Of a stretch of DNA of 53,362 bases, positions 982 through 14,719 are shown piece by piece. The translations under genes were made by a program, and so were the position numbers. The notes beneath the pieces were generated by a model, which searched no databases, had not been told where the DNA came from, and was given only the letters and a program-made list of their open reading frames with translations. The first letter of the stretch is position 1; every line of letters starts with the position of its first letter. Source of the stretch: Planctomycetia bacterium (GTDB taxonomy: Bacteria > Planctomycetota > Planctomycetia > Pirellulales > PNKZ01); assembly GCA_021413845.1 (NCBI GenBank), contig JAIOPP010000012.1, forward strand, positions 1 to 53,362. The letters are read 5' to 3'.

Positions 982-1761
982 CTATTCCGCATCTTCTTTT
1001 TTCGACGGCGGCATCGCCGTCGTGTTTTGCGTCTTCTCGAGTTCGGCGAGCCATTGATCGTATTCGGCGCGCGACTCGATCTTGAGCCGCCCCTTCATCT
1101 TGTAGTGGCCCCAGCCGCAAAGCTCGGCGCACACCAAGTCGTATTCTCCGACCCGTGTGCCCGTGAACCAAACGGGAATCGTCGTGCCGGGCACCGCGTC
1201 TTGCTTGACGCGCAAGTGCGGTAGGAAGAAGTCGTGCAGCACGTCGGCGCTTTCGAGCTTCACCATCACCAACTCATCGACCGGCAAGTGCAGCTCGTTG
1301 ACGTGGTACAGGTCGTCGCGCGTGCCGATGATGCCGTCTTTGCCCGGGTAGCGGAGCCGCCACTCGAACTGCCGGCCGGTTACTTCGACCGTATACGGCA
1401 TGTTGGGCTTATTGAGCTTCACGGCGGCCCACGCGTTCATCTGATAAATCGCGATGAAGAGCAACGTGGCGGCGGGCAGGATCGTCCAGATGATTTCCAG
1501 ATTGTGGCTGCCGTGCGTGAACTTCACCGGCGAGGTGTTGGTCGCGCGATCGTAGCGCCAGAGAAACCAGAACAACAACACTTCGGTGACGAGGAACACG
1601 ACGCCCGTCAGGCCGAGAATGAAGTTGAATAAGTGATCGATCTGGTAACCGTGCGCGGAAACGTCGCGCGGCAGCCAGTAATTATTGAACGGTGCCCAAA
1701 CGAATAGGCCGATGCCGAAGATCGGGACCGTCAAAAACAGCAAACTCCAAAATTTACCCAC
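982..1761 (-). CDS. ctaC: Cytochrome c oxidase subunit II (CuA subunit)
   Basis: Electron-entry subunit of the oxidase, 259 residues with a GTG start. It has an N-terminal hydrophobic segment (about 5-25) and a second helix (about 45-70), then a periplasmic cupredoxin domain. The CuA site is complete: an upstream His in VLHDFFLP, then CAELCGWGHYKM, giving C-x3-C-x3-H-x2-M with the bridging Glu. The aromatic stretch QFEWRLRYPG before it is the usual electron-transfer region. There is no fused cytochrome c domain at the C-terminus, so the electron donor must be separate; the diheme lipoprotein encoded just upstream and the cupredoxins beyond it are candidates. The gene sits between the diheme cytochrome and subunit I on the same strand. 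Confidence 0.96.
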   Translation of the reverse strand: MGKFWSLLFLTVPIFGIGLFVWAPFNNYWLPRDVSAHGYQIDHLFNFILGLTGVVFLVTEVLLFWFLWRYDRATNTSPVKFTHGSHNLEIIWTILPAATLLFIAIYQMNAWAAVKLNKPNMPYTVEVTGRQFEWRLRYPGKDGIIGTRDDLYHVNELHLPVDELVMVKLESADVLHDFFLPHLRVKQDAVPGTTIPVWFTGTRVGEYDLVCAELCGWGHYKMKGRLKIESRAEYDQWLAELEKTQNTTAMPPSKKEDAE

Positions 1762-1842
1762 CGTCGTCCTCCGCGAACCGCGAGGTTCGCCGCTATCGCT
1801 CTGATTTAAATCGTTGTCTTGTGTGTGCGTCGTGTCGTGTCG

Positions 1843-3426
1843 CTATTCGCCGCCGGCCAGTTTCGCATTCCCGGCCGACGCGTTTGCCGTAGCCGGCGTC
1901 GGCGGAAGGTGCGAAGCGTGACCATGCCCGTCCGCTGCATGTGCCTTGTGTCCGTCGCTTCCGTGCGGCGGGTTGCCGTTTTCGTCGTAGAACGGCAACG
2001 TCAGCACGTAGTCGACGAGTTGCCAGATTTCTTGGTCGGTCAGTTTCGCAGGTTGCCCCGGCGACGGCGGACCGGCTCCCGGCATTTCCGTGCCGTTGAT
2101 TCCTACGAAGATGCGGCGATAGATGTCGAGCGGCGCACGGCCGAAGCGAATTCGATTGAGCCGCAAGTTGCGCGGGAACTGTTGCATCTCCGGCAAGAGC
2201 CAGCTGTTGCGAATGTTCGTCAGCGATTGCGCCTCGACCTTGTTTCCCTTGGCAAGCGCCGCCGCAATTTCCTCGCTCTTCAACTTGAACTTTTTGTCTT
2301 TGTTCCAGAAGTCGTAGAGAGGCTCCGATCGCTTTCGGCCGTCGCCGATGCCGGTCGTGCCGTGGCAGGTAAAGCATTGGCCTTTCTGGCCGGCGAACAG
2401 CGCTTCTCCCGCCTTCAGCCAAGCGTCTTGATCGGTGCCCGGCGTGTAGGCACCACCGGGAGCGACGATCTTCGTTTCCGCTTCCGCCCAGGTGTCGACG
2501 ACATCCTTCAGCGCGGTCTTCACGAGCACCGCGCGATTCGGCGGCAAGAGCTTCTCGTCGCCGAAGATCTTATCCTTCAAGGCTTGCTCCGCTTCGCCGC
2601 GGATCGAAAGGTATTTCACGTATTCGATCAGCGCGTCGATTTCGTCCGGCGCGAGCAACCGGAAGCTCGGCATCGCCGTATCGGGAATGCCGTCGACGAG
2701 AATACGGGTCAGGTCCGCGTGCGTCGGCTTGGCCGAGCGTTCCGTCGCTTTGAACTTAAAGATCCCTTGGCGGTAATCGCGCGGGTAGGGATTGAGGAAG
2801 AGCGCCGTCGGGCCGGCGCCGTCGCCGGTCGTGCCGTGGCAATGCACGCAGTGTTGACGGTAGAGCCCCTTCTGCAAGACCGAGTAAGACTCGATCTGCA
2901 TGTTCAAGTCTTCGAGCGATCCCTTGGCAGCTCCGACTTCCGCCTCGGCTTTAAGCTTCGCTTCGTCCGTTGCCGGAGCGGCCGCAAACTTCTTCGCAGC
3001 GGGCTCGAGCGTATCGGTGAGCTTCTTTTGCAGCTCCGTCCGATTCTTGACGAGTGCTTCGAGATCGGCCGCTTGGACGTCGGCTCGCAAGCCGCCGACC
3101 GGGCCCGACGCCAGCCGGATCTTCTTCAAGTTGAGTCCGCTCTCGCGAAACACGAACGGCCGATCGGGAGTGCCGAAAATCGCATCGAGCGCCGAGGCGA
3201 TGTAATCGCGTCCCGGAATCATCAACGTCTCTTTCCGCTTCTTCTGTTCTTCATCGTCGGTCGAGAGGACGATGAATTGATCGCGGTCGGAGTTTTGATT
3301 ATTGAGATGGAAGCTCGGCGAACTATTGCCGGGCTTCTCGCAGCCGACCAGCAACGACAACCCCAAGGCCGAGAAGCCGAGGCTGAGGCGAAGTAGGCAG
3401 GCACCGCTGAATGAAAAGTTACGCAT
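1843..3426 (-). CDS. Diheme cytochrome c lipoprotein
   Basis: Predicted membrane-anchored periplasmic electron carrier of 527 residues. A lipoprotein signal ends at LLVGC with the lipidated Cys at 29. Two cytochrome c domains follow: CVHCH at 193-197 with a likely axial Met in DTAMPSF (about 252), and CFTCH at 351-355 with a likely axial Met in GTEMPG (about 448). The stretch between about 120 and 180 is Ala/Lys/Glu-rich and probably helical. The C-terminus is His-rich (about 489-506). It lies directly upstream of oxidase subunit II, which has no cytochrome domain of its own, so I infer that it delivers electrons to CuA. The individual cytochrome family cannot be named from sequence alone. 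Confidence 0.9.
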   Translation of the reverse strand: MRNFSFSGACLLRLSLGFSALGLSLLVGCEKPGNSSPSFHLNNQNSDRDQFIVLSTDDEEQKKRKETLMIPGRDYIASALDAIFGTPDRPFVFRESGLNLKKIRLASGPVGGLRADVQAADLEALVKNRTELQKKLTDTLEPAAKKFAAAPATDEAKLKAEAEVGAAKGSLEDLNMQIESYSVLQKGLYRQHCVHCHGTTGDGAGPTALFLNPYPRDYRQGIFKFKATERSAKPTHADLTRILVDGIPDTAMPSFRLLAPDEIDALIEYVKYLSIRGEAEQALKDKIFGDEKLLPPNRAVLVKTALKDVVDTWAEAETKIVAPGGAYTPGTDQDAWLKAGEALFAGQKGQCFTCHGTTGIGDGRKRSEPLYDFWNKDKKFKLKSEEIAAALAKGNKVEAQSLTNIRNSWLLPEMQQFPRNLRLNRIRFGRAPLDIYRRIFVGINGTEMPGAGPPSPGQPAKLTDQEIWQLVDYVLTLPFYDENGNPPHGSDGHKAHAADGHGHASHLPPTPATANASAGNAKLAGGE

Positions 3427-3569
3427 TACGAATACCGTGTTATCAGGGGCAGTTGCGGTCGGAAACTCACCGTCGCAACACGCCGTTCGAACTCACCGCA
3501 AAACTTCCGACCAACGTCCGATCCATTATTTATTTGCCGAACATCTCGCACTGACGACCAATGCTGCGA

Positions 3570-4454
3570 TTACTGCAACGCCCCTTGCGGAACCTCGACG
3601 TCCATCGCCACCGTTTCGCCGTCTTTCGGGATCGTGACCTTGAATCGGCCCCGATTCGACCACTCGGGCTTGGCTTTCAAGCCGTTGCCGGTGGCCGTCC
3701 CCTTTTCATGCCACACTTGAAACTCAAGCTCGACGCCGGCCGGTAGCTTCTCGATCGCGAACGTGCCGTCTTTGCCGGTCACGGCGAAGTAGGGATCTGG
3801 CCGAACGACGTGATAGGCCTTCATCCAGGGATGAATGGCGCAGGATACCTCGTAAGGAGTCGTGAGCGGATTCTTAAAGCCGGCGTATTCATAGCGGCCG
3901 GTCTTGGCCGCGAGCAACACGTTGTACGAAGGATTGCCGCGACCCGGCGAGCCGTTTGAGTTGTGTCCCGTCGTGTCCGAGTTGAGGATCACGAACTTAT
4001 CTTTGATCGATGACGCGAAGACATGGTGAATGAACCGGCATTCCGTTTGATCGAAGACGGCTTCCTTCTGCGGAGCCGAATCGTAGTCGGGAGTAACGCG
4101 CGGCGCTTCAACCAAGAAGATCAAAACGTCGGCCAAACCTTTGGTTGCAGGGTCGACGCGAATCGATTCGTCTTTCACCTGAATTTTACACATCGGATCT
4201 TTTCCGCCCATGGCGATGTCAGCCATGTTTGGAGCCGCCGCTGCGAACTTAAACGAACCCTTGAGCGTTCCCCAGCCCGAGCCTCCTCCTCCGCCTGCCG
4301 CCGCCCCGCCGCCGGCCGCTTCGCTTTTGCGCATCAGCGCGACCGTCTCCAGGTTCGGCGACGGATCGCTGCTGGTGCTTTTATTGCAGCCGCCGCAGAA
4401 TACCGCGACGAGCCCGAGGGCTGCGAGAAGCGAAAGAGGTTGAGTCTTCTTCAT
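3570..4454 (-). CDS. Cupredoxin-like lipoprotein with carboxypeptidase-regulatory-like tail
   Basis: A 294-residue lipoprotein. I start it at the ATG at 4454 because the N-terminus MKKTQPLSLL leads straight into a lipobox, VFCGGC, with Cys23; the longer reading adds 64 residues of Arg/Ser-rich sequence with no signal. After a Gly/Ala-rich linker the domain contains HNSN and then CAIHPWM, a His...Cys-x2-His-x2-Met set that fits a type 1 copper site, although copper binding is inferred. A following part (VTGKDGTFAIEKLPAG) resembles carboxypeptidase-regulatory or Cna-B-like beta folds. It is a paralogue of the next upstream gene, and both sit inside the respiratory gene block. Probably a periplasmic electron carrier or a structural subunit. 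Confidence 0.85.
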   Translation of the reverse strand: MKKTQPLSLLAALGLVAVFCGGCNKSTSSDPSPNLETVALMRKSEAAGGGAAAGGGGGSGWGTLKGSFKFAAAAPNMADIAMGGKDPMCKIQVKDESIRVDPATKGLADVLIFLVEAPRVTPDYDSAPQKEAVFDQTECRFIHHVFASSIKDKFVILNSDTTGHNSNGSPGRGNPSYNVLLAAKTGRYEYAGFKNPLTTPYEVSCAIHPWMKAYHVVRPDPYFAVTGKDGTFAIEKLPAGVELEFQVWHEKGTATGNGLKAKPEWSNRGRFKVTIPKDGETVAMDVEVPQGALQ

Positions 4455-4548
4455 GATTCGGCGTCTGGATTCGCTGAGGGTTCGGAAACTGTGCGTTTGG
4501 CACGACGAGCTCGCGGCGGCGTTCGCCGAGAACCGATCGTGGTGAGTA

Positions 4549-5286
4549 TTACTTAAAAAGCTTCGGGTCGACCGAGATCTCGCCGAGGTCTTGATCGGCG
4601 CTGAGCGTGACGGTGAATCGCCCCTTCGCCCATTCAGGCTTGGCAACTAAGAAGCCGGCTCGTTCGTGCCAAACTTGGATCTCAAGCTCGGTGCCGGTCG
4701 GCAAGTCTTTCAGTGCGAAGCTGCCGTCGGCACCGCTCACGGCGACATACGGATTGTCGCGGACGATGACGAACGCCTTCATCCAAGGATGGATGCTGCA
4801 CGACAGTTCTTGCGGCAGAAGCTTCACGCCGGAAACCGGAATTTCTTGTTCGCTGTTGGGAGTCAGCAAAGGGTTGACCCCTGCAAAAGCGAAGTTGCTG
4901 TTATGGCTGACCGGGTCGGAGTTCTTGAAGACGAGCTTTTGCTTCCCGGACCAGAGCCCGACCATGTGAGGGTGAAACTGGCCCCCTTTGTTGTCGATCG
5001 CGACCGTCGGGGCGAGCGCTTTCTCGGCCGCGGGCGTGGCGGCGACATCGGCCGTGCGGACGTAGACGGCGATGTTCGCAATTCCCTTCGAGGTCGGATC
5101 GACGACGAGGTTTTGCAGCGTGAGCTTCTGGCCGGGGAAGTCGCTCTCGGCCTTGCCGTCGGTGATCGGAGTCGGAGCAGGCACATCGCCCGTCAGAACG
5201 AACTTCCCTTTCAGATCGGCGGCGTCGACCGAGGTCGCAGCGAAAGCGAACGAAGCGAGCAGGGCGAAACGGAGCGTGCGAAGCAT
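4549..5286 (-). CDS. Secreted cupredoxin-like protein, paralogue of the neighbouring lipoprotein
   Basis: 245-residue exported protein. The start at 5286 gives a clean signal peptide (MLRTLRFALLASFAFAATSVDA, cut near residue 22); the longer reading adds 70 unlikely residues. It shares with its downstream neighbour the HNSN motif, CSIHPWMKAF and the segment VSGADGSFALKDLPTG plus QVWHE. The His/Cys/His/Met spacing suggests a type 1 copper centre, but metal binding is not shown. The stretch 5287-5543 ahead of it, separating it from the giant cytochrome gene, shows no further gene. Similar 'plastocyanin/methylamine-utilisation-like' annotations are common for this fold. The role as an electron shuttle between the bc-type complex and the oxidase is inferred from gene order. 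Confidence 0.85.
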   Translation of the reverse strand: MLRTLRFALLASFAFAATSVDAADLKGKFVLTGDVPAPTPITDGKAESDFPGQKLTLQNLVVDPTSKGIANIAVYVRTADVAATPAAEKALAPTVAIDNKGGQFHPHMVGLWSGKQKLVFKNSDPVSHNSNFAFAGVNPLLTPNSEQEIPVSGVKLLPQELSCSIHPWMKAFVIVRDNPYVAVSGADGSFALKDLPTGTELEIQVWHERAGFLVAKPEWAKGRFTVTLSADQDLGEISVDPKLFK

Positions 5287-5543
5287 CGTGATTCTCCAAA
5301 CTTTCGACACGCCGGTCGTGGCGTTCGAATAGCGATTAACGGAAATGGACGGGCAATCCATGCCGAACGGTGTGGCGGAGCGAGGCGAGCCGCAACTACG
5401 AGCCACGGCCATGCAACGGCGTTCGTCGACAGCCGAGCGGCTGCAAGCGAAGTCGTCGGCGAGGCTGTGACGTTGATTGCGGAGTGAGCGATTCATCTTA
5501 AAACGGACCTGCGATTCATCGATCTTCGTAACGAAACGAAAAA

Positions 5544-8500
5544 CTACGGCTTCGGACTCGAACTTCCACCGGGAATGCCGGAGCTAGGCGGAGTGGGAGT
5601 CGAGGGAGTAGGTGTTGCTGGAGACGGTGTCGATGGGGTCGACGGCGTTGGAGCCGGCGACGAACCGGATGGTGTTCCCGGCGACGACGTTCCCGGGGAT
5701 GGTGTCGAACCAGTGCCCGGCGGCGTCGGAGTAGACGGTACCGGAGTCGATGGTTTCGACGGAGTCGGCGTCGGTGTCGTCGGCGTGCTTGGTGTCGACG
5801 GAGTTGGTGTCGTGCTCGGCGTAGCAGGCGTGGTCGACGGGCCGGTGCTCGGTGTCGTACCGGTCGGTGTAGCGCCGGTCGGTGTTGGTGTACCAGGAGT
5901 TGTTGCGGCACCTGGAGTCGTCGGGCTTCCCGGCGGCGGGGTCGAGGCTTTCACCATAGCCGCGACCGACGTCTTCTTCTTCATCACGTTATCGTAGTTG
6001 AGCAACAGATCGACGACGGCGTTGACCTGCTCTTCGCTCGTACCCTTATACAGGTGCTGAGCGACCGTCTGCCCATACGGGAAGTTCACCGGCATACCGG
6101 TGTACGGCAGGATGCGGCCCGGGTTGGCGATCCAATCGCGCAGGAATTCCGGACGGAGCCGGGCGTTGACCACGGCCAAGTTCGGCGCTTGAGCGGCCAG
6201 CGCACCGAGCGGCGCGAAGTCTCCCACGCGATGGCACTTGATGCAGAAACCCTGATCGGTAATCAATTTGAACGCGTCGTTCAAACGCTTGTCGTCGGCT
6301 GCGCCGGCCGTCGAAGCGTCGGTCGCTCCGCCGCCGTTGGCGCCTGAAACCGTCTTTTGGTATTCGGCATCTTTAGCGGCGACGTAATCGGTCCGGGTCC
6401 GCTCGTCGAACTCGTACGGGAACTCGACGTTGTCGAGAGCCGCGAAGTGGTTCACGATCGCTTCCGACTCGGCACTCGTCAGATGGAACTTCGGCATGCG
6501 CAGAATCGCCGATGGTCGGATCAGGTGCGGATCGAGGAGGAAGTCGTGCAACCAGCGAGGTTGTACCTTCTTCCCTTCGCCCATCAACGGCGGCGGCCCG
6601 AAGCCCCAGACGTCGGATGCTTTGACGTTCGGGTTCGCTTTCTTTTCCAGTGCCAGCGCGACCGGATGCAGATAGTTGGCGAAGATGCCGCCCCGTTGCG
6701 GGAGTCGCTTGTCGGCGCTAGGCGGATTCAGTTTCTCATCAATCGCGATATCGGTGCCGCCGGAGAGCCACGTCTGCCCGTCGACCAACGTCGGCGACCA
6801 GAGCTTGAAGTACATTGTCGGCTCTTCTTCGTCTTCCTTCGGTTGCGGCAAGCCTTGGATATGGGCATGGCCCAAGCCGCGACGATCGACTTCCTTCGAC
6901 TTGCGGATCTGATCCGGAGTGTAGTGCGGAATCAAGAACGGATATTCGGCCGCGAGCGGCGGAGCGGTGATCTTGCCCGGCTTATACTCGATCTCCCAAC
7001 GCTCTTGTTGCAGCGTATGGCAACCGGCGCAGTTGAACTTCTCCAGCACGCTTACCCCTTCGAGCACCGCTTGCTGCCGCGGGCTCGGACGGTAAACGTA
7101 TTTCGCCGGCGGCGGCTCGGCGACGAGCCCGAGCACGAACGTCATGATCGATTCGCGCTGCGCGTCGTCGAGGTTGAACTGCGGCATGCGCAGCCGATCG
7201 ATGTACGATTTGTTTTCGGTCTTCTTGTAGTCGTAGCTGCGCGGCTCGCGGAGCTTCTGCCAGATAAACCCTTCGCGCTGGTGATGGCCGAGGGCTTCCA
7301 TGTAGAAACCCTTGTCCAGGCGTTGCTCGGCGGTGAGCCCGTCTTTCGGCGGGCCGCTCGGCGCTGCGCCGTGGCCTCCATGACCGTGGCCGCCGTCTTT
7401 TTCGCTCAGATAAGCGAGGATCTGCTCGAAGGCCAGCTTCGATGGTTCTTTGCGACCCCAATCGGCGAGGCCCGTTCCGATCGACTTCGCATCTTCGAAG
7501 CCCGGGATGTCGTGACAGCCGGCGCAACCGAGCCGGCCGATCGACTTCTTACCGAGATAGTTCAGTTTCTTGTCGTTGCTCCAAGCTTCGCCGGCTTCGA
7601 CGATCAACAGGCGCTCGTCCCCCTTGATCTGCGACTTACGCTCGGCCGGGATGCCGGTTTTGAGATACGCTTCCGTGTCCGACTTTGTGAACGCGCCGCC
7701 CAAATAGAGGCGGAGCAAATCATCGATGTCCTTCTCTTTGCCGTTGAGCGAGGGAACGGCTTCCGGCTTCCACGGTGCCTTGTCCGACGGGCGGTTCTTA
7801 TCGGCGAGCAAGAACGCGGCGATATCGGCGGCCGGATCGGTCGTCGAAGTCGTCGGTGCGGCGGCCCCGGCAACGGTCGTACTGGTCGTGATCGGGTCGA
7901 GCAGCAAGTTCGGCATCACGGTGCGGGCATGGTACAGGTTCGGCTGCTTAAGCCACGAGTAGAGCCACTTCGCGCCGCGCTCGTCGGTGAGCTTCGCACC
8001 GATGCCGCTCAGGTCGGGACCTTGCGTCTGGTGGATGCCCGGGAATTCCGCATGGCTATGGCAAGCCAAGCAGCCGCGCGTTTGGAAAGTCTGCTTGCCG
8101 CGCTCGGCGCTGGCGGCTTCGATCGTCTTACCGTCGGCGGCGGTTTTCGGCGCGTCGACGTACTTGAACGGCTGGCTCTCGTCGAGCAGGTAGCGGCTCA
8201 CGGCCAACACTTCGATCGGCTCGAAGCGCTCGGCATCGACAAGGCCCGGGCTCTTCTCCATCACCGGATGTCCGGACTTATCCAGAACCGGTTCTCCCTT
8301 TTCATTCAGCTTCTCGACGTCGGTCAAGTGGCTATAGAGCCCGAAGAACTTCGGCATCTTCGTCGATGGCCGGAAGTTTCGCGGATCTTTGATCCAGCTG
8401 TTGAGGAAGGCGAGATCGTTTTTCGCGGCGACATACCGCAAGCTCGGCCCGACCTTCGGGTACTTGCCCGGCATTTCATCGTCGGCCCCGAGGATGCCCG

Positions 8501-10511
8501 CTACGGAATACGTTTCCGGGCCGAGCGTCGGCGGCGTCTTGCCGTCGGCCCCGCCTTTCGCATCGGCGACGATCAACTCGGCCAGCAGCTTGCGTTCCGA
8601 CGTCAGATCCGGATTCTGCATCACGCGGGTAGCCAGAGCCGCGATGCGACTCAAGCTGCCCGGTCCCGGCGCCACTTGTAGTTTCGGATCGGCCAACACT
8701 TGCGCGGCGGCTGCGAAGTAGTTCGGCTCGGCCCGTAGGTCCGGCCCGCGGCGCTTCTTCGGGCCGTCGTAGCCGTTGATTTCGTGGCAGCCGAAGCAGC
8801 CGACGTTTTCGATTGTCTCATAACCGGCAATGAGCTTCGGAGCCGGCGGCTGCGGGAACTTCTCGCTCGGCTTGAGCTCCGTCACGTCGTGATGGCACTT
8901 CAAACAGTTGGCTTCTTGAAACCGCGTCGGCAACATCGGGTAAATCCAGTGATGGTTGTTGAACCATCCCTGTTCACGTTGCCATTGGGCCGCTTGGTTC
9001 GGATCGTTCGGCGTGTGCGAGGCCCACTTGAAGGCGGTCGCATTCCCCTGCCCTTCGTGGCAGATCGAGCAACCGAAGTCGCCGATCTTGTGCGGGCTCA
9101 TCGAACCGACGAACAGATCCAACCGAGGATGGCTGGCATAAGGGTGCGGCAGCCCGCGCCGAATCGTCAGCTCCAGCGGCTTGCCCCATTCGGGAACCGA
9201 CTTCAAGAGATAGTTTTCAGCCATCTCTTGGTCGAGGATTTTCACCGTGCCGACTCTCGTAATAACGTCGCCACCCTTAAGCCCTGCTCGAATCGCAGCG
9301 CCGCCGGGAAACACCGCTTCGACGGTCACATCGTCGGCAGTGAGCAAACCGGCCGACGAGAGTTGCATGCCGTAAATGCTTTGCAACCGATCGTTGAGAG
9401 GCTTCGCATAGTCGGCGGAGTCTAAGCCTGCTTTCGGCGTTTCGAGCGCGACCTTCTCCTCATGTGCGGTTTCATATGCCGGGTCGACGGCCGAGCCCGG
9501 GGCCGTCTTCTCGATCCCTTGATGGCAGGTCACGCAGCGGTCGAAGCGGGCGACGTTGCGGAAGTTGTTGTTCCAGGTCAGATCCGGCAACCAAACTTGC
9601 GCCGGCTTCAACGGGCCGCCGAACGCATCGACGACCGGCATTTCCAAGAACGTTCGGCCGAGGTTCGGAGCCTTTTCTTTGATCGCGGTGTTCAAACGCT
9701 CGACGTCGCCGTTGTGCTTGTCGAGTTCCTTCTTCGCATCGACTTCCCGAGCCTTGAGCGCGGTAAGTTGGTTGAAGAGCGCGAGGCGGTGCGTCTTGTT
9801 CGCTTGATAGGTGGGAGTGAGTTTTTCTTCGACTCCCGTGCGGGCCGCGTCGACTTTCTTCTGAATCTTGTCCAGCTCTTCCGGCGATTTCCCTTCGTCG
9901 ACGCCGATCGCGAGCATGCTCATGTCGACGTCGAGATCTGCCTTCGTGAATTTCAACTGCCGTTGCGATTCGTTTTCGACGAAGCTCGCCTTGTCGATCA
10001 ACCGCTGCATCGAGGCGAGCAGCACGTTGCGTTTGTCGGCGACCTTCTCCATCGCGGCGCCGAGCTTCTCTTCGAAGGCCTTGCGATCGGCGGCCGTTTC
10101 CGGCGTCGGCTTAGGTGCGACGGCGATCGCCTTTGCTTCCTGTTCCGCTTCGAGCAGCTTCGCGTAGTCGGCTTCGATCGCGGCGGTGTCGTACTTGTTT
10201 TCGGGGCGCTTGTTCGCTTCGGCGAGGAAGGCGTCGATGTCCTTGCGCGACGGCACGGACGAGCGGGCGAGCGAGTACTCCGCTTCGAGGTCGACTTTCT
10301 TCTTCGTGTAGTCCGAGGTGAGTTGCTCTTTCGAGCGCCATTCGAGGAACTTCGTTTCGATGGCGCCAAACTGCTTTTGCAGTCCCTTGGCTTCGCGATT
10401 GTGGTCGGAGGCCAACATCCACACCGAGATCAGCAACATGGCCGCAGCCGAGATGCCGAAAACCACGTGGAGTGATTTGAGGTTACGCCAAGTTTGTTCT
10501 GTTGCCGGCAT
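5544..10511 (-). CDS. Giant octaheme cytochrome c with N-terminal membrane anchor, coiled coil and PDZ domain
   Basis: 1655 residues. One membrane segment (about 16-34) is followed by a charged, probably coiled-coil region (about 40-285). Eight CxxCH motifs start near 326, 481, 536, 572, 814, 996, 1161 and 1423. A PDZ-like domain (about 376-452, with FPGGAAIRAGLKGGDVI) lies between the first and second hemes. Several heme segments are followed by a 'KMP' or 'RMP' Met (for example 719, 1109, 1339) that could be axial ligands. The last 130 residues are Pro/Thr/Ser-rich low complexity. It follows the two cytochrome b genes in the same direction, where a bc1 complex would have cytochrome c1, so I infer that it is the c-type subunit of the quinol oxidoreductase. 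No single known family covers the whole chain. Confidence 0.93.
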   Translation of the reverse strand: MPATEQTWRNLKSLHVVFGISAAAMLLISVWMLASDHNREAKGLQKQFGAIETKFLEWRSKEQLTSDYTKKKVDLEAEYSLARSSVPSRKDIDAFLAEANKRPENKYDTAAIEADYAKLLEAEQEAKAIAVAPKPTPETAADRKAFEEKLGAAMEKVADKRNVLLASMQRLIDKASFVENESQRQLKFTKADLDVDMSMLAIGVDEGKSPEELDKIQKKVDAARTGVEEKLTPTYQANKTHRLALFNQLTALKAREVDAKKELDKHNGDVERLNTAIKEKAPNLGRTFLEMPVVDAFGGPLKPAQVWLPDLTWNNNFRNVARFDRCVTCHQGIEKTAPGSAVDPAYETAHEEKVALETPKAGLDSADYAKPLNDRLQSIYGMQLSSAGLLTADDVTVEAVFPGGAAIRAGLKGGDVITRVGTVKILDQEMAENYLLKSVPEWGKPLELTIRRGLPHPYASHPRLDLFVGSMSPHKIGDFGCSICHEGQGNATAFKWASHTPNDPNQAAQWQREQGWFNNHHWIYPMLPTRFQEANCLKCHHDVTELKPSEKFPQPPAPKLIAGYETIENVGCFGCHEINGYDGPKKRRGPDLRAEPNYFAAAAQVLADPKLQVAPGPGSLSRIAALATRVMQNPDLTSERKLLAELIVADAKGGADGKTPPTLGPETYSVAGILGADDEMPGKYPKVGPSLRYVAAKNDLAFLNSWIKDPRNFRPSTKMPKFFGLYSHLTDVEKLNEKGEPVLDKSGHPVMEKSPGLVDAERFEPIEVLAVSRYLLDESQPFKYVDAPKTAADGKTIEAASAERGKQTFQTRGCLACHSHAEFPGIHQTQGPDLSGIGAKLTDERGAKWLYSWLKQPNLYHARTVMPNLLLDPITTSTTVAGAAAPTTSTTDPAADIAAFLLADKNRPSDKAPWKPEAVPSLNGKEKDIDDLLRLYLGGAFTKSDTEAYLKTGIPAERKSQIKGDERLLIVEAGEAWSNDKKLNYLGKKSIGRLGCAGCHDIPGFEDAKSIGTGLADWGRKEPSKLAFEQILAYLSEKDGGHGHGGHGAAPSGPPKDGLTAEQRLDKGFYMEALGHHQREGFIWQKLREPRSYDYKKTENKSYIDRLRMPQFNLDDAQRESIMTFVLGLVAEPPPAKYVYRPSPRQQAVLEGVSVLEKFNCAGCHTLQQERWEIEYKPGKITAPPLAAEYPFLIPHYTPDQIRKSKEVDRRGLGHAHIQGLPQPKEDEEEPTMYFKLWSPTLVDGQTWLSGGTDIAIDEKLNPPSADKRLPQRGGIFANYLHPVALALEKKANPNVKASDVWGFGPPPLMGEGKKVQPRWLHDFLLDPHLIRPSAILRMPKFHLTSAESEAIVNHFAALDNVEFPYEFDERTRTDYVAAKDAEYQKTVSGANGGGATDASTAGAADDKRLNDAFKLITDQGFCIKCHRVGDFAPLGALAAQAPNLAVVNARLRPEFLRDWIANPGRILPYTGMPVNFPYGQTVAQHLYKGTSEEQVNAVVDLLLNYDNVMKKKTSVAAMVKASTPPPGSPTTPGAATTPGTPTPTGATPTGTTPSTGPSTTPATPSTTPTPSTPSTPTTPTPTPSKPSTPVPSTPTPPGTGSTPSPGTSSPGTPSGSSPAPTPSTPSTPSPATPTPSTPTPPSSGIPGGSSSPKP

Positions 10512-10610
10512 GCCAGGAGGCCTTCCAGGATCTGCGTTGCATCGAAATTCTTGTCAGTCGGTGCGGCTTCGTCGAGTCGCCCGAAAACGATCCGTCGTCT
10601 TAAAAGCGTC

Positions 10611-11957
10611 TTAAAAGTTCAGGAAGTATTCGGGAATGCTGATGATGTACTTCAAGTTCACGGTCCAGCGCAGCACCATCTTCAAAGGGAGCGAGGCCAT
10701 GAGCAGCAGCAGGTTCGCCATCAGCATGTATCGCACCAAGCCCATCTTCGCGTAGAAACTGCGGAACACGGTCACGGCCATGATCGGCGGCAGCAACAGC
10801 AAGTAGCCGAGCGTTAGGATGATGCCCGGGCTTTCGCGCCAGAGAATGTAGAGGATCTCGGTTCCGGCGCTACTGCCGGCCGGAGCCTTCGGCATTCCCC
10901 GTTCGAGCAAGCCGCCCCAGAAGTATTGCGAAAGGTCGACGTTGTTCTGTGCGAGTACTTTGTGCGCGTCCCAATACTCGAACGGTCCGAAGAAGTTCCA
11001 GTTGGGCCCGCGCAGAAACGTTCCCAAGATAATGAGCACGATCCACAACTCGAAGAAGCCGATCTGAAACACGATGTAGCTGAACTTGCGTTCTTCGATC
11101 GTGTAGTAGCCGTTGCCCCCCTTGTTGAAGTCGAGGAACGGAATCGCCATTAGCCCGAACACGACGATGCTCGGCAGCACCACGCCGGCGTACCACGGAT
11201 CGTAGTACACGAGCATTTCCTGCAAGCCGAGGAAGTACCAAGGGGCCTTCGACGGGTTCGGCGTCTTCACGCTGCTTGCCGGCTCTTCGAGCGGCGCGGG
11301 AAGCGCCAGCGCCCAGACGAGCATCAGCGCCGTCACCGCGACCATGCAGATCATTTCGGTGTAGACCAAGTCGGGCCACACGAGCACCTTCTCGTCGTCG
11401 ACCTTCTCCATCGGCGGCAAGCCTTGTCGCCGGCGATCGTCGTTGATGACGGCGCGATACGTGGCTACCCAGGTAAAGAACCCGAGCAAGAACACGAGGC
11501 CGACGATCGGCACGTTGTCCGGCTTGCCGACGATCTCGAAGAAGTTCGCATCGGTCACGGCGAGGCCCATGCCGAACATCGCAAGATTCAAAAGCACCCA
11601 GGCCACGGCCGGCTTCGTCCACCAGTTGCGGAACAGAAACAGAAACGCCATGCCGGCGAGCGAGCCGACGGTGAGCGTCACCGGGCCGGAAAGAGAGTTG
11701 ATCAGGTGCTTTACCGCTTCGGGAAGTTCCGGCGGGCTCCCCATCATCGCGATCGGAGCGAGAATCAAAAACCAAGCACCGAGCAGCATCCACAGCGCAA
11801 GGTTCGAGACCGTGAGGCCGCCGAGCTTAAACAGCGGACGGATGCCGCTGCGCCAAGCCATGAGTGCGGCGCTCCAATTCAGAATGCAAAGGATCAGGTA
11901 GTAAAAACCCAATCCCATCTGAATCCGAGAGAGAAAGACTTCGTGATTGCCGTGCAT
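10611..11957 (-). CDS. Cytochrome b subunit with C-terminal-domain (subunit IV-like) quinol site
   Basis: Polytopic membrane protein of 448 residues. The second half contains KAPWYFLGLQEMLVYYDPWYAGVVLP (about 237-262), matching the PEWY-type Qo-site region of the cytochrome b C-terminal domain, with Ala where Glu normally sits. It is followed by several more helices. The first 200 residues hold about five extra hydrophobic segments and no His pair spaced 13-15 apart, so this part is not a second heme-bearing cytochrome b N-domain; I do not recognise it. The gene is downstream of the b6-like gene and upstream of the octaheme cytochrome. Together these make the split cytochrome b of a Rieske/cytochrome b complex. 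Confidence 0.88.
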   Translation of the reverse strand: MHGNHEVFLSRIQMGLGFYYLILCILNWSAALMAWRSGIRPLFKLGGLTVSNLALWMLLGAWFLILAPIAMMGSPPELPEAVKHLINSLSGPVTLTVGSLAGMAFLFLFRNWWTKPAVAWVLLNLAMFGMGLAVTDANFFEIVGKPDNVPIVGLVFLLGFFTWVATYRAVINDDRRRQGLPPMEKVDDEKVLVWPDLVYTEMICMVAVTALMLVWALALPAPLEEPASSVKTPNPSKAPWYFLGLQEMLVYYDPWYAGVVLPSIVVFGLMAIPFLDFNKGGNGYYTIEERKFSYIVFQIGFFELWIVLIILGTFLRGPNWNFFGPFEYWDAHKVLAQNNVDLSQYFWGGLLERGMPKAPAGSSAGTEILYILWRESPGIILTLGYLLLLPPIMAVTVFRSFYAKMGLVRYMLMANLLLLMASLPLKMVLRWTVNLKYIISIPEYFLNF

Positions 11958-12055
11958 GGTTGTTCAATGAATTCGTATTCGGGATGACGACCGCCTCGTA
12001 CGGCCGCACATAACTCTTCGCTCTTCTCTGCCTCAAATCACTATCTCAAGCGGCT

Positions 12056-12829
12056 TTACAGCGGCCCACTGATACCGCCGTCTTTGCGAACTCGCCAGAA
12101 GTGGATCGCCAACAACAGCGAAGCCGCCAACGGAATCGCAACGCAATGCAACACGTAGAACCGGTTCAGCGTCTCTTCGCCGACGAAGCGGGCACCCAAA
12201 AGTGCGAACCGCGCGTCGGATGCGTTCGTAATCATGTCGAGACCGCCGACATGCAGAATTTGCTGGCCGGGACCTTCGTGGCCGAGGAACGGCGTAGCGC
12301 GAGCCATGTTCGATCCGACCGTGATAGCCCAGATCGCCAACTGATCCCACGGCAACAAATAGCCGGTGAAAGAGAGCAGGAGCGTCAGCAGTAGCAAGAT
12401 CACGCCGACGACCCAATTGAACTCCCGCGGAGGCTTATAGCTACCTGTGAGAAACACACGATACATGTGCAGCCAAGTCGTGATGACCATCGCGTGCGCA
12501 CCCCAGCGATGCAACTCGCGGAACACGCCGAGGCTTACGACGTCGCGCAGATCTTGGATGTCTTTGAAGGCCCACTCCAGCGTCGGCCGGTAGTAGAACA
12601 TCAAGAGCACGCCGGTCAGCGTCTCGATCAGGAAGAGGAAGAACGTCACCCCGCCCATACACCAGGTATAGCTGAGCGCGATCCCTTGCTTCTTCACCGA
12701 AACCGGATGGAGATGCAGGAAGAAGTTGGTGAGCATCACCACGATCCGATTGCGCCGATCCAGCGGCATCGGATGACGGAAGACGCTCTTCCAAACTTGC
12801 GAATTACGAATGTTCTCGCCGATGGACAT
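12056..12829 (-). CDS. Cytochrome b6-like subunit of a Rieske/cytochrome b complex
   Basis: 257 residues, about four transmembrane helices, the split cytochrome b form. The diheme ligands are present as H107/H121 (RELHRWGAH...LHMYR, 14 apart) and H228/H243 (15 apart), the spacing of cytochrome b6. The end, [10 protein letters not shown], is also b6-like. Cys57 in [10 protein letters not shown] aligns by motif with the b6 cysteine (YCLGGIT) that covalently holds heme ci, so a third heme is likely. It probably oxidises menaquinol or another quinol and passes electrons to the Rieske protein encoded immediately upstream. Spacing to the Rieske stop is 128 bp and to the next cytochrome b gene 98 bp. 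Confidence 0.94.
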
Positions 12830-12957
12830 GTGCGGTTCGATTCAAGTCGGGTCGGTGAAACGGAAATTCAAACAACGCGGAAATTCAAAGCTGAGCGGAC
12901 GGCGAACAAGCGGAGAGAGCGACGCCTCGGCGAATGCCGAGCGCCGCTGCTTCGCGC

Positions 12958-14079
12958 TTATCCCGTATAGAACGATTGCGGATCGACCCACTGTCCCATC
13001 TCTTCGAAGAACAGTTTGCTCTTGTCGACTTCGAGTTGGCCGTCGTCGGCGAGCGAGATCGCATAGCGTTCCAAAGGCCGCGGGGCCGGGCCTTCGAAAT
13101 TGATGCCGTCTTTGTAGAAGCCGCTACCGTGGCAGGGGCATTTGAATTTCTGTTCCGCTTCGAGCCAGTTCGGCGTGCAGCCGAGATGCGTACACACGGT
13201 CCGGATCGCGCAAATTTCCGGCTGGCCGTTGTATTCCGTGTTCACGATCCAAACGCCGAACTGCGCTTTGAACTTCTCTTCGACCTTGCCGAGCGCGAAA
13301 TCGCTTGGGAAGCCGACTTTGAATCGGCTAGGCGGCTCGGTAAGAATGTTGGGGAACATGAAGCGTGCGAGGCCCAACGTCCACAAGCCGCCGGCTGCGG
13401 CGAGGCACGTGTAGCCGAGCCCGAGCATCGAGCCGAACATCACGCTTAGGAACCCGCGGCGATCTTCGGCCGCGGCTCCCTTGGCACCGGCCTTGGCTGC
13501 GGGCTTCGGTTGCGCGAAGTCGGGCTTCACCGGCATCGTCGGCGCGATCTTGGCCGGCTTCTCGGGTGCGAGAACCGGGCTTTCCTTCGCGGCCGCTTCG
13601 GCTTTCGTCATCGGTCCCGGCTTCGCGCTTTTACGCGCGGCGGCCAAGATGCTCGACGTATCCTTCGGCCCAGCTGCGACGACTGCCCCGGGGGCTTCTT
13701 TCTTTTCGGCGGCCGGCTTCGGGGCCGGAGCTTGTTTCGCTTCCACGGGCTTCGGCGGAGCCTTGGGCGATTCCGCTGCGGCACCGCCGGCTTTCGCGGC
13801 GCCTTGAGCACGCGCCGCGGCGAGCATCTCGGCCACGCTCAGCTTGCCGCCGGCCGGCTTCGGAGCGGCGGGCTTGGGCGCCGGAGCGGCGGCAGGTGCT
13901 TCCGCGGGTGTCTCAGGTGCGGCCTGCGCTGCGGGACCTTGAGCGGCTGGTTCCGCCGCGGGCGCGGCGTCCGCCGGAGGATCGGCAGCGGGCCCTGCCG
14001 CAGCCGCCGCAGCGTCTGCTTTGTTTTTACGCGCTAGTGCCAGAATTTCCTGTACGGAAAGTTTCTTCTGCTCGGCCAT
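12958..14079 (-). CDS. Rieske [2Fe-2S] protein with long Ala/Pro-rich N-terminal extension
   Basis: Iron-sulfur subunit of the cytochrome bc/b6f-type complex. The cluster motifs CTHLGC (296-301) and CPCHGSGF (from 314) supply the two Cys and two His ligands. A Tat-like RRGFL (from 207) precedes one membrane helix (about 212-240), as expected for a Rieske anchor. The first 205 residues are a low-complexity Ala/Pro/Lys tail expected to stay in the cytoplasm. They contain three copies of a short motif: KLSVQEILALAR, KLSVAEMLAAAR and TSSILAAAR. Start taken as ATG 14079 (MAEQKK); an in-frame ATG at 14094 would add five residues. First gene of the respiratory block. Confidence 0.94.
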   Translation of the reverse strand: MAEQKKLSVQEILALARKNKADAAAAAAGPAADPPADAAPAAEPAAQGPAAQAAPETPAEAPAAAPAPKPAAPKPAGGKLSVAEMLAAARAQGAAKAGGAAAESPKAPPKPVEAKQAPAPKPAAEKKEAPGAVVAAGPKDTSSILAAARKSAKPGPMTKAEAAAKESPVLAPEKPAKIAPTMPVKPDFAQPKPAAKAGAKGAAAEDRRGFLSVMFGSMLGLGYTCLAAAGGLWTLGLARFMFPNILTEPPSRFKVGFPSDFALGKVEEKFKAQFGVWIVNTEYNGQPEICAIRTVCTHLGCTPNWLEAEQKFKCPCHGSGFYKDGINFEGPAPRPLERYAISLADDGQLEVDKSKLFFEEMGQWVDPQSFYTG

Positions 14080-14719
14080 GTCTTTTGTTTTCAACCCCGC
14101 GTTGTTCAGCCGTCGTCACGGCGAAATTCAACGACCCGTCGCACTGCAAAATCTCGGCGACCTACTCGATCGATGAGCGACTCACTTCTGCGACTCTCTC
14201 GGCCCGCCCGCAATCCCTGCACGGACTAACCGCTGCGATCGATCCCAACCCATCCAACCCTTCGACCCCCCAACCCCTCGACGGCATTGCCGATCGCTCC
14301 GGCGAGAGACCTCGCAGCGCGACCGGAAATCGCCGCAAAGCGTTTCCAAGACAGCGTTGCCGGCCTGCGGCAATCATCGTAAGTAGGGCAGTAAAGTGGG
14401 TGTTGTACCACAAGTCGGGAACTTTGACATAGCCGCGCTTGTGATTTATTTCACGATCCTGTGGAAATTGTTATTGTGCCCCTCCCGATTGTCAACCGCT
14501 ACCCAGCCTCGCCTCCCGCCCATCGAGGGGAGAAAAGCGAGAGAATCGGGTCGACGGAATTCTCGCCGCCGGCGAAGATCGTCCTTCATCGGCGAATTCT
14601 CCACGCGGCTGAACGCCGTTGTCGCACCTAACGAAATTTTTTCGCAGTTGTCGACGAGTTCTTACGAGACAGATATGTAAAGCGACGCCGGCGAATCGAA
14701 AAAGATCAGAGCCGACAAA
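14080..14719. other. 640 bp divergent intergenic region
   Basis: Lies between the Rieske gene (minus strand) and the D-glutamate cyclase-like gene (plus strand), so it must hold the promoters of both unless the respiratory block is read through from elsewhere. Several reading frames cross it, but none has recognisable protein features. Apart from the possible minus-strand promoter listed separately I see no RNA gene or repeat here. Confidence 0.6.
14468..14495 (-). promoter_or_regulatory. Possible promoter of the respiratory gene block
   Basis: On the minus strand a perfect TTGACA (14490-14495) is followed after 16 bp by TAACAA (14468-14473), a weak -10. It would give a leader of nearly 400 nt before the Rieske gene. 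Sequence match only; the poor -10 keeps confidence low. Confidence 0.3.

Follow-up and report, generated by a model that had tools for sequence, protein, structure and literature searches.

A PDZ domain between hemes 1 and 2 of a large octaheme cytochrome c encoded beside Rieske and cytochrome b genes in Planctomycetota

What is a PDZ domain doing between two hemes of a respiratory cytochrome? The question is raised by a 53,362-nucleotide stretch of DNA from a Planctomycetia bacterium (contig JAIOPP010000012.1 of assembly GCA_021413845.1), which we call the window. Here a gene for a 1655-residue octaheme protein, P0001, lies next to genes for a Rieske protein and cytochrome b subunits. To our knowledge, no energy-converting Rieske/cytochrome b complex has been described with a PDZ domain, and a search of the open-access literature returned no report of one. 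The pairing of a PDZ domain with c-type heme has a precedent in MamP and MamE (the available text of PMC3971196), the sole one found in the literature searched. Our analysis confirms an order-specific PDZ insert in an octaheme respiratory cytochrome that is itself phylum-wide, together with two further PDZ sites in homologues from another order, family f2.

The original prediction, made from the DNA sequence, had placed a PDZ domain at residues 376–452, between the first two hemes. The domain and its position hold; its borders are wider, as the structure model and Pfam give approximately residues 347–455. The relevant features of the protein are as follows.

5544..10511, minus strand: octaheme PDZ cytochrome P0001, 1655 residues (open reading frame and translation; relatives at 65 loci)
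9522..9536, minus strand: heme 1 CxxCH, residue 326 (motif)
9147..9473, minus strand: PDZ domain, residues 347–455, between hemes 1 and 2 (Pfam, structure model, Foldseek, VIA-align, DegP-like profile)
9360..9377, minus strand: predicted carboxylate-binding loop and start of beta2, residues 379–384, IYGMQL (G381 in 64/64 rows)
9201..9230, minus strand: predicted PDZ alpha-B helix, residues 428–437 (model helix; L435 in 62/63 rows)
9057..9071, minus strand: heme 2 CxxCH, residue 481 (motif)

When the whole of P0001 is scanned with Pfam, PDZ_2 matches with an E-value of 1.3e-4, under its curated cut-off, and all PDZ models stay below theirs. The excised segment rises above the cut-offs (PDZ_2, 28.2 versus 27 bits; PDZ, 23.4 versus 23.2), and PDZ_6 and PDZ_2 match all 28 members scanned, namely the window's protein and 27 relatives, with a best E-value of 2.7e-12. 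An AlphaFold2 model built on a 47-sequence alignment places residues 351–450 at a predicted local distance difference test score (pLDDT) of 87–95. With the whole 870-residue model as the Foldseek query, all 50 matches listed are PDZ domains (best E-value 4.7e-3). The modelled fold of residues 347–454 matches the first PDZ domain of Scribble (6ms1) in VIA-align, with a Z-score of 9.7 and a root-mean-square deviation of 2.0 Å over 87 residues. The nearest solved chains by profile are those of the periplasmic HtrA proteins DegP and DegQ, through their PDZ1 domain (6jjk, E-value 2.6e-12); unlike these, P0001 has no protease domain among its Pfam matches. A chance match is ruled out by the agreement of fold, profile, and all 28 members.

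The predicted carboxylate-binding loop is, as judged from the alignment, intact in the window's group (64/64 rows). Position 380 is Tyr or Phe in 63/64 rows, 381 is Gly in 64/64, 382 is hydrophobic in 64/64, 384 is Leu or Phe in 64/64, and 435 is Leu in 62/63; a few of these rows duplicate one genome, and one locus, L114, failed the pattern. The window's own residues 380–382, Tyr-Gly-Met, follow the hydrophobic-Gly-hydrophobic pattern. Both the loop assignment and the pocket-lining role of position 432 in helix alpha-B rest on standard PDZ topology.

How widely is this domain shared? Scanning genome contigs yielded 65 loci, all titled as Planctomycetota or planctomycete except L054 ('bacterium'). 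Hemes 1 and 2 are 151–182 residues apart in all 63 loci that cover both; L055 and L062 do not cover them in the frame taken. A survey of the architecture across Planctomycetota then separated the octaheme protein from its insert. The heme 2–4 core (alignment A4) was found in 60/149 genomes across the phylum and in 96/198 across the class, and the octaheme frame holds eight CxxCH motifs at 38 of 40 loci examined. Far from being absent from homologues everywhere, the heme 1–2 PDZ is present in 22 of the 23 genomes of the same order that have the core, the window's genome included. It was found in none of the 70 genomes examined from other orders of the class (of 73 with the core; G242, G284, and G288 lie outside the examined set). 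There the spacing of hemes 1 and 2 is mostly 45–77 residues, with longer inserts without PDZ, of ~97–172, in family f88. Other classes likewise carry octaheme homologues, none with a heme 1–2 PDZ among the 31 genomes examined (of 55 with the core); their spacing is mostly 39–100, with longer non-PDZ inserts in L160 and L168. The heme 1–2 PDZ as a property of the whole family is ruled out by this survey of spacing and hidden Markov model matches. Since the domain is confined to one order and the octaheme protein spans the phylum, the sequences point to an old octaheme protein and a PDZ domain inserted later.

The trees are consistent with this order of events. In a first tree, built from 41 sequences after taking out the insert, one clade (support 100/99) unites the 18 proteins that have the PDZ with L137, a same-order protein on a long branch; the heme 1–2 PDZ label needs two changes versus a shuffled mean of ~13.6. 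This tree drew 7 of 20 sequences from one set and 12 of 47 rows from the earlier alignment. It leaves out ten sequences, including both rows from f2, that fail the heme-2 pattern, as well as six highly divergent sequences, L132, and L150. In a second tree, of 30 chosen rows that include f2, midpoint rooting makes f2 the sister of the clade formed by the order (95/95); once more, two label changes are needed. The simplest reading would be a single gain of the PDZ on the stem of the order (probably Pirellulales, assigned by NCBI to Planctomycetia) followed by one loss; two gains are conceivable as well.

Two side observations concern this sampling. Eight records titled 'Candidatus Kuenenia stuttgartiensis' (L016, L020, L027, L028, L042, L045, L050, and L065) have the heme 1–2 spacing of the PDZ group. 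Their titles look mislabelled, and L065 falls within the PDZ clade of the first tree. Within the window's own order, the octaheme core is patchy: at least 20 genomes have no match, and the 20 listed all belong to families f50 and f80. The complex must therefore be replaceable.

The PDZ domain recurs elsewhere in the same cytochrome. Family f2 belongs to the same class and another order; all 32 of its genomes with the core were taken, and 31 cover hemes 5–7. PDZ models match each of six excised f2 stretches, and in four the PDZ_2 score, at 35.5–44.9 bits, exceeds the cut-off of 27. A profile scan locates a PDZ domain after heme 5 in 11/31 proteins and after heme 6 in 8/31. Pfam agrees, with PDZ_2 matching the heme 5–7 stretch in 19/31 at an E-value of 0.01. 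The proposal that there is no PDZ at all outside the window's order is refuted by these domains, detected with Pfam and with a second profile.

Detection depends on the query. The A3 profile, made from the window's group, misses the f2 domains that Pfam and the second profile detect, and scans of whole proteins under-report: L141 is silent when scanned whole, and the excised stretch of the same genome (L075) contains a PDZ domain. The 30 whole proteins of set A5, L148 and L141 included, gave no PDZ model at an E-value of 0.001. In the A6 set, PDZ_2 matched 7/44 members, and the f2-type profile found PDZ domains in f2 rows only. The A3 match in L188–L191 is restricted to the last 20 model positions, outside the PDZ. 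The PDZ alignment by itself, run against 59 genomes, picked up PDZ domains in general.

A third tree, of 39 rows and shorter pieces, includes five heme 1–2 rows and three outgroup rows and leaves out the partial L208. Here the heme-6 group forms a single clade, supported at 100/100, and the heme-1 group a second one at 99/92. For the heme-5 group, four changes are required, two of them forced by well-supported branches. The place of f2 as sister of the order's clade is not certain, because this tree puts f2 across a 99/92 branch, alongside the three outgroup rows. The domains at the two f2 sites are closer to each other (median score 78) than to the window's site (37.5 and 39); the window's PDZ was therefore probably captured separately. 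Those at the two f2 sites may have a common origin, or the domain may have shifted from one site to the other. In sum, PDZ domains occupy three sites of the octaheme cytochrome and derive from at least two events, probably three or more. A fourth site is possible in family f87, where the coil before heme 1 contains weak PDZ-like stretches in L148 (PDZ_6 E-value 0.038; A3 independent E-value 0.001) and in L231 (A3 independent E-value 0.012).

What would the domain do? We lean towards a putative docking module for the C-terminus of a partner protein. The intact carboxylate loop, together with a fold that recurs at three sites, favours peptide docking, and its repeated uptake suggests that a PDZ is of use in itself. 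The PDZ would have entered the heme 1–2 loop in the stem lineage of the window's order, and would hold a partner's C-terminal tail beside the heme wire. The tail so held might belong to the Rieske protein, to a carrier, or to some other protein of the periplasm. On the minus strand the cluster runs Rieske, b6, subunit IV, octaheme, two cupredoxin-like proteins, diheme c, and oxidase subunit II. The neighbours of P0001 are the following.

12958..14094, minus strand: Rieske 2Fe-2S protein with a long Ala/Pro/Lys-rich N-terminus (Pfam E-value 2.4e-8; CTHLGC...CPCHG ligands)
12056..12829, minus strand: cytochrome b6-like subunit (Pfam, NCBIfam, sequence)
10611..11957, minus strand: subunit IV-like cytochrome b C-terminal protein (Pfam, NCBIfam)
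4549..5496, minus strand: cupredoxin-like protein 1 (Cupredoxin_1 E-value 0.0019, below cut-off; sequence)
3570..4646, minus strand: cupredoxin-like protein 2, lipoprotein-like (CxxHxxM motif; putative identity)
1843..3426, minus strand: diheme cytochrome c, lipoprotein-like (Pfam; two CxxCH)
982..1761, minus strand: cytochrome c oxidase subunit II with a CuA-type CxxxCxxxH motif (Pfam, sequence)

We compared the C-terminal tails of the cluster proteins in loci with and without the heme 1–2 PDZ, leaving out the copies L002, L016, and L062. The counts ignore relatedness, and the set without includes L141, which has a PDZ after heme 5. Rieske tails end in a hydrophobic-x-hydrophobic pattern in 56/58 loci with the domain versus 14/27 without. 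The diheme cytochrome c ends in a bulky hydrophobic residue in 33/49 loci with the domain and 0/5 without, the latter a small set; the window's own diheme protein ends in …AGGE, which is not bulky hydrophobic. A diheme tail of ...DRF or similar occurs in many loci with the heme 1–2 PDZ (for example L008, L014, and L024), not in the window.

Several observations weigh against docking. Among the operon C-termini compared, no tail cleanly tracks the heme 1–2 PDZ. In the window itself the Rieske C-terminus is ...SFYTG, whose last residue is not hydrophobic, and the hydrophobic-x-hydrophobic Rieske tail is also found in f87 and f88, where there is no clear PDZ; the subunit IV tail fits in 66/67 loci with the domain and in 29/29 without. 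Position 432 of helix alpha-B is Glu in the window, and just 66% of rows have a hydrophobic residue there. Genome G184 (L137), of the same order, has no PDZ and a heme 1–2 spacing of 51, 10/31 f2 proteins have no insert at hemes 5–7, and the homologues in other classes presumably function without a PDZ. The PDZ sites also differ in their surroundings, so a single shared partner is not obvious.

Some of these points suit a purely structural insert, which would bind no peptide and would fill space or brace heme modules at insertion-tolerant loops. On the sequence evidence, the octaheme cytochrome does tolerate insertions at several loops. The long heme 1–2 inserts of L145, L146, L154, L160, L166, and L168 give no Pfam PDZ match to an E-value of 1. 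Those of L146, L160, and L168 (157, 247, and 159 residues), which are unrelated, and the heme 6–7 inserts without PDZ match of L212 and L215 in f2 support this explanation. The lack of a ligand that tracks the domain and of a consistently hydrophobic position 432 points the same way. Against it stand the occurrence of the same fold at three sites and the conservation of the loop glycine and its flanking hydrophobic residues in the window's group, although these may be kept for folding alone. On balance we regard a structural role as unlikely, though it deserves attention. Further long inserts, between hemes 4 and 5, are seen in L197, L199, and L218.

The domain could also lock a dimer of the complex through PDZ–PDZ or PDZ–coil contacts. 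MamP, a c-type cytochrome with a PDZ domain, is a dimer held mainly by PDZ contacts, as the accessible part of PMC3971196 describes. Furthermore, Rieske/cytochrome b complexes have been modelled as dimers, with the helices of the anammox protein Kustd1485 wrapping the complex (PMC12954380, in the part at hand). The PDZ sites differ between lineages, making a common dimer contact less likely, and we consider this explanation quite improbable. A role in assembly or quality control, such as binding heme-insertion factors or unfolded tails, is less probable still. It would suit the closeness of the domain to DegP and DegQ, and the L212 insert has a weak match to a PPIC-type isomerase (19.2 bits versus a cut-off of 27). 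Pfam scans of the cluster proteins revealed neither a protease nor an assembly gene.

Docking, to return to the reading we prefer, would take place beside a proposed path of electrons. In complexes of this kind, quinol oxidation at the b/Rieske site feeds c hemes. Quinol would be oxidised at the corresponding site here, and electrons would pass via the Rieske protein to the octaheme chain, from there to the cupredoxin-like and diheme carriers, and on to the CuA centre of the co-encoded oxidase. A bolder version, tentative and on the whole doubtful, is a PDZ-built quinol-to-oxygen supercomplex, in which DegP-type PDZ domains were taken in independently at three sites, each capturing the C-terminus of a Rieske protein or of an oxidase carrier. 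Lineages with a PDZ at hemes 1–2, 5–6, or 6–7, or nowhere, represent a natural experiment on partner recruitment, and the PDZ domains could reveal how this planctomycete respiratory chain is held together.

All of this presupposes that the octaheme protein belongs to the complex. It might instead be a stand-alone cytochrome encoded next door, which we judge highly improbable. The Rieske–b6–subunit IV–octaheme order is kept in 31/40 loci across the phylum, from the window's order to other classes, and cupredoxin-like and oxidase genes often accompany it; in the remaining 9/40, some genes were not found, partly at contig ends, or the order differs. Anammox relatives are moreover treated as one complex (the portion of PMC12954380 consulted). 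The original prediction had spoken of a bc-type cluster and a cytochrome c1-type subunit. The Rieske and b genes do adjoin P0001, with cytochrome b split into b6 and subunit IV, and no cytochrome c1 or f model is among the 11 Pfam families (to an E-value of 0.1) or 10 NCBIfam families (to 0.01) that match it. P0001 is not a cytochrome c1; it would stand in for cytochrome f/c1 in a Rieske/cytochrome b complex of the b6f-like kind. It is best explained, then, as a large octaheme cytochrome c, anchored in the membrane, that belongs to a Rieske/cytochrome b6-type complex predicted to oxidise quinol.

The closest known parallels are found in anammox bacteria, whose Rieske/cytochrome b complexes have a hexa- or octaheme cytochrome c in place of cytochrome f (available text of PMC12954380). 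As set out there, Kustd1480–1485 and Kuste4569–4574 encode a b6-like cytochrome b, a subunit IV-like protein, a Rieske protein, and a membrane-anchored multiheme cytochrome c. Kustd1485 is large, with long helices wrapped halfway round the complex (PMC12954380, as far as available); these resemble the coil of P0001. The main text of that paper makes no mention of PDZ. Among our loci, L167 encodes a Rieske protein, b6, a flavin/4Fe-4S NAD(P) oxidoreductase, subunit IV, and a 956-residue octaheme protein. BLASTP aligns P0001 with the latter piecewise, over the span of hemes 2–8 (best E-value 3e-51), and the L167 protein gives no PDZ hit. The L167 cluster is anammox-like and probably corresponds to the anammox complexes; the homology of P0001 to these rests on L167, not on the sequence of Kustd1485 itself. 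Whereas the anammox complexes carry an NAD(P) oxidoreductase, the window's cluster has cupredoxin-like proteins, a diheme cytochrome c, and an oxidase subunit instead; of its eight proteins that were scanned (982–14094), not one has a Pyr_redox or Fer4 match.

MamP and MamE resemble P0001 in that a PDZ domain is fused to c-type heme domains. They differ in having small magnetochrome domains beside the PDZ, no Rieske/b complex, no eight-heme chain, and no PDZ inserted between hemes (all from the part of PMC3971196 available). The general Pfam scan found no magnetochrome domain in P0001, and no dedicated magnetochrome model was run. The window's cytochrome b proteins score best against NCBIfam ExtP (262.7 of 290 bits) and ExtQ (62 of 150), both below the cut-off. 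The selenite/tellurite Ext operon differs from the window's cluster with its oxidase.

The remaining features of P0001 are listed here.

10410..10478, minus strand: N-terminal transmembrane helix, residues 12–34 (hydropathy peak at residue 16; model helix 5–36)
9672..10394, minus strand: long helical coil, residues 40–280 (AlphaFold2 helices, pLDDT mostly 85–98)
8712..9146, minus strand: conserved heme 2–4 core, residues 456–600 (alignment A4; present across the phylum)
8892..8906, minus strand: heme 3 CxxCH, residue 536 (motif)
8784..8798, minus strand: heme 4 CxxCH, residue 572 (motif)
8058..8072, minus strand: heme 5 CxxCH, residue 814 (motif; Pfam Cytochrom_C)
7512..7526, minus strand: heme 6 CxxCH, residue 996 (motif)
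7017..7031, minus strand: heme 7 CxxCH, residue 1161 (motif)
6231..6245, minus strand: heme 8 CxxCH, residue 1423, in a SoxX-like cytochrome domain (motif; NCBIfam; Foldseek SoxX)
5547..5951, minus strand: Pro/Thr/Ser/Gly tail, residues 1521–1655 (composition; varies between relatives)

Most of the architecture first read from the DNA is borne out. The reading frame proposed at 5544–10511 is real, and its strand, previously left unstated, is minus: it runs from 10511 to 5544, and the plus-strand reading is broken by in-frame stops. The hydropathy peak at residues 12–34 agrees with the membrane anchor proposed for the 1655-residue protein, whose predicted mass is ~180 kDa, heme excluded. The eight CxxCH sites (residues 326, 481, 536, 572, 814, 996, 1161, and 1423) account for all 16 Cys of the protein. 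In place of the 250 residues of coiled coil, the model has long helices at ~40–280, and this coil is also kept in those relatives read from other orders without the heme 1–2 PDZ. The Pro/Thr/Ser tail put at 130 residues is present, with 135 residues of which 81% are Pro, Thr, or Ser. Its length is not conserved, being 135 in P0001 versus 14 to 84 residues past a fixed point in 45 other rows. The octaheme tail ends in ALN in 14/56, restricted to part of the loci.

The heme-bearing parts of the AlphaFold2 model have low confidence, because AlphaFold2 has no heme. Compared with solved chains, the heme 2–4 core gave no match at an E-value of 0.01. Foldseek matches to the C-terminal half were SoxX and a handful of further cytochromes, all with weak E-values, plus unrelated chains. 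A PADLOC scan gave no match. The source genome has one full-length octaheme copy and three partial matches.

Some details of the neighbouring genes complete the description. Cupredoxin-like protein 1 likely starts near 5286, at a predicted signal peptide, and cupredoxin-like protein 2, which matches zero Pfam families, likely starts near 4454. The start of the window is the start of the contig; in the same-genus locus L132, oxidase subunit I comes after subunit II. The b6-like subunit has a Cys at the place expected for heme c_n, a motif also checked in relatives. The quinol-site motif of subunit IV reads KAPWY rather than PEWY here and likewise in 12/12 relatives checked. The Rieske protein has ~200 additional N-terminal residues, rich in Ala, Pro, and Lys.

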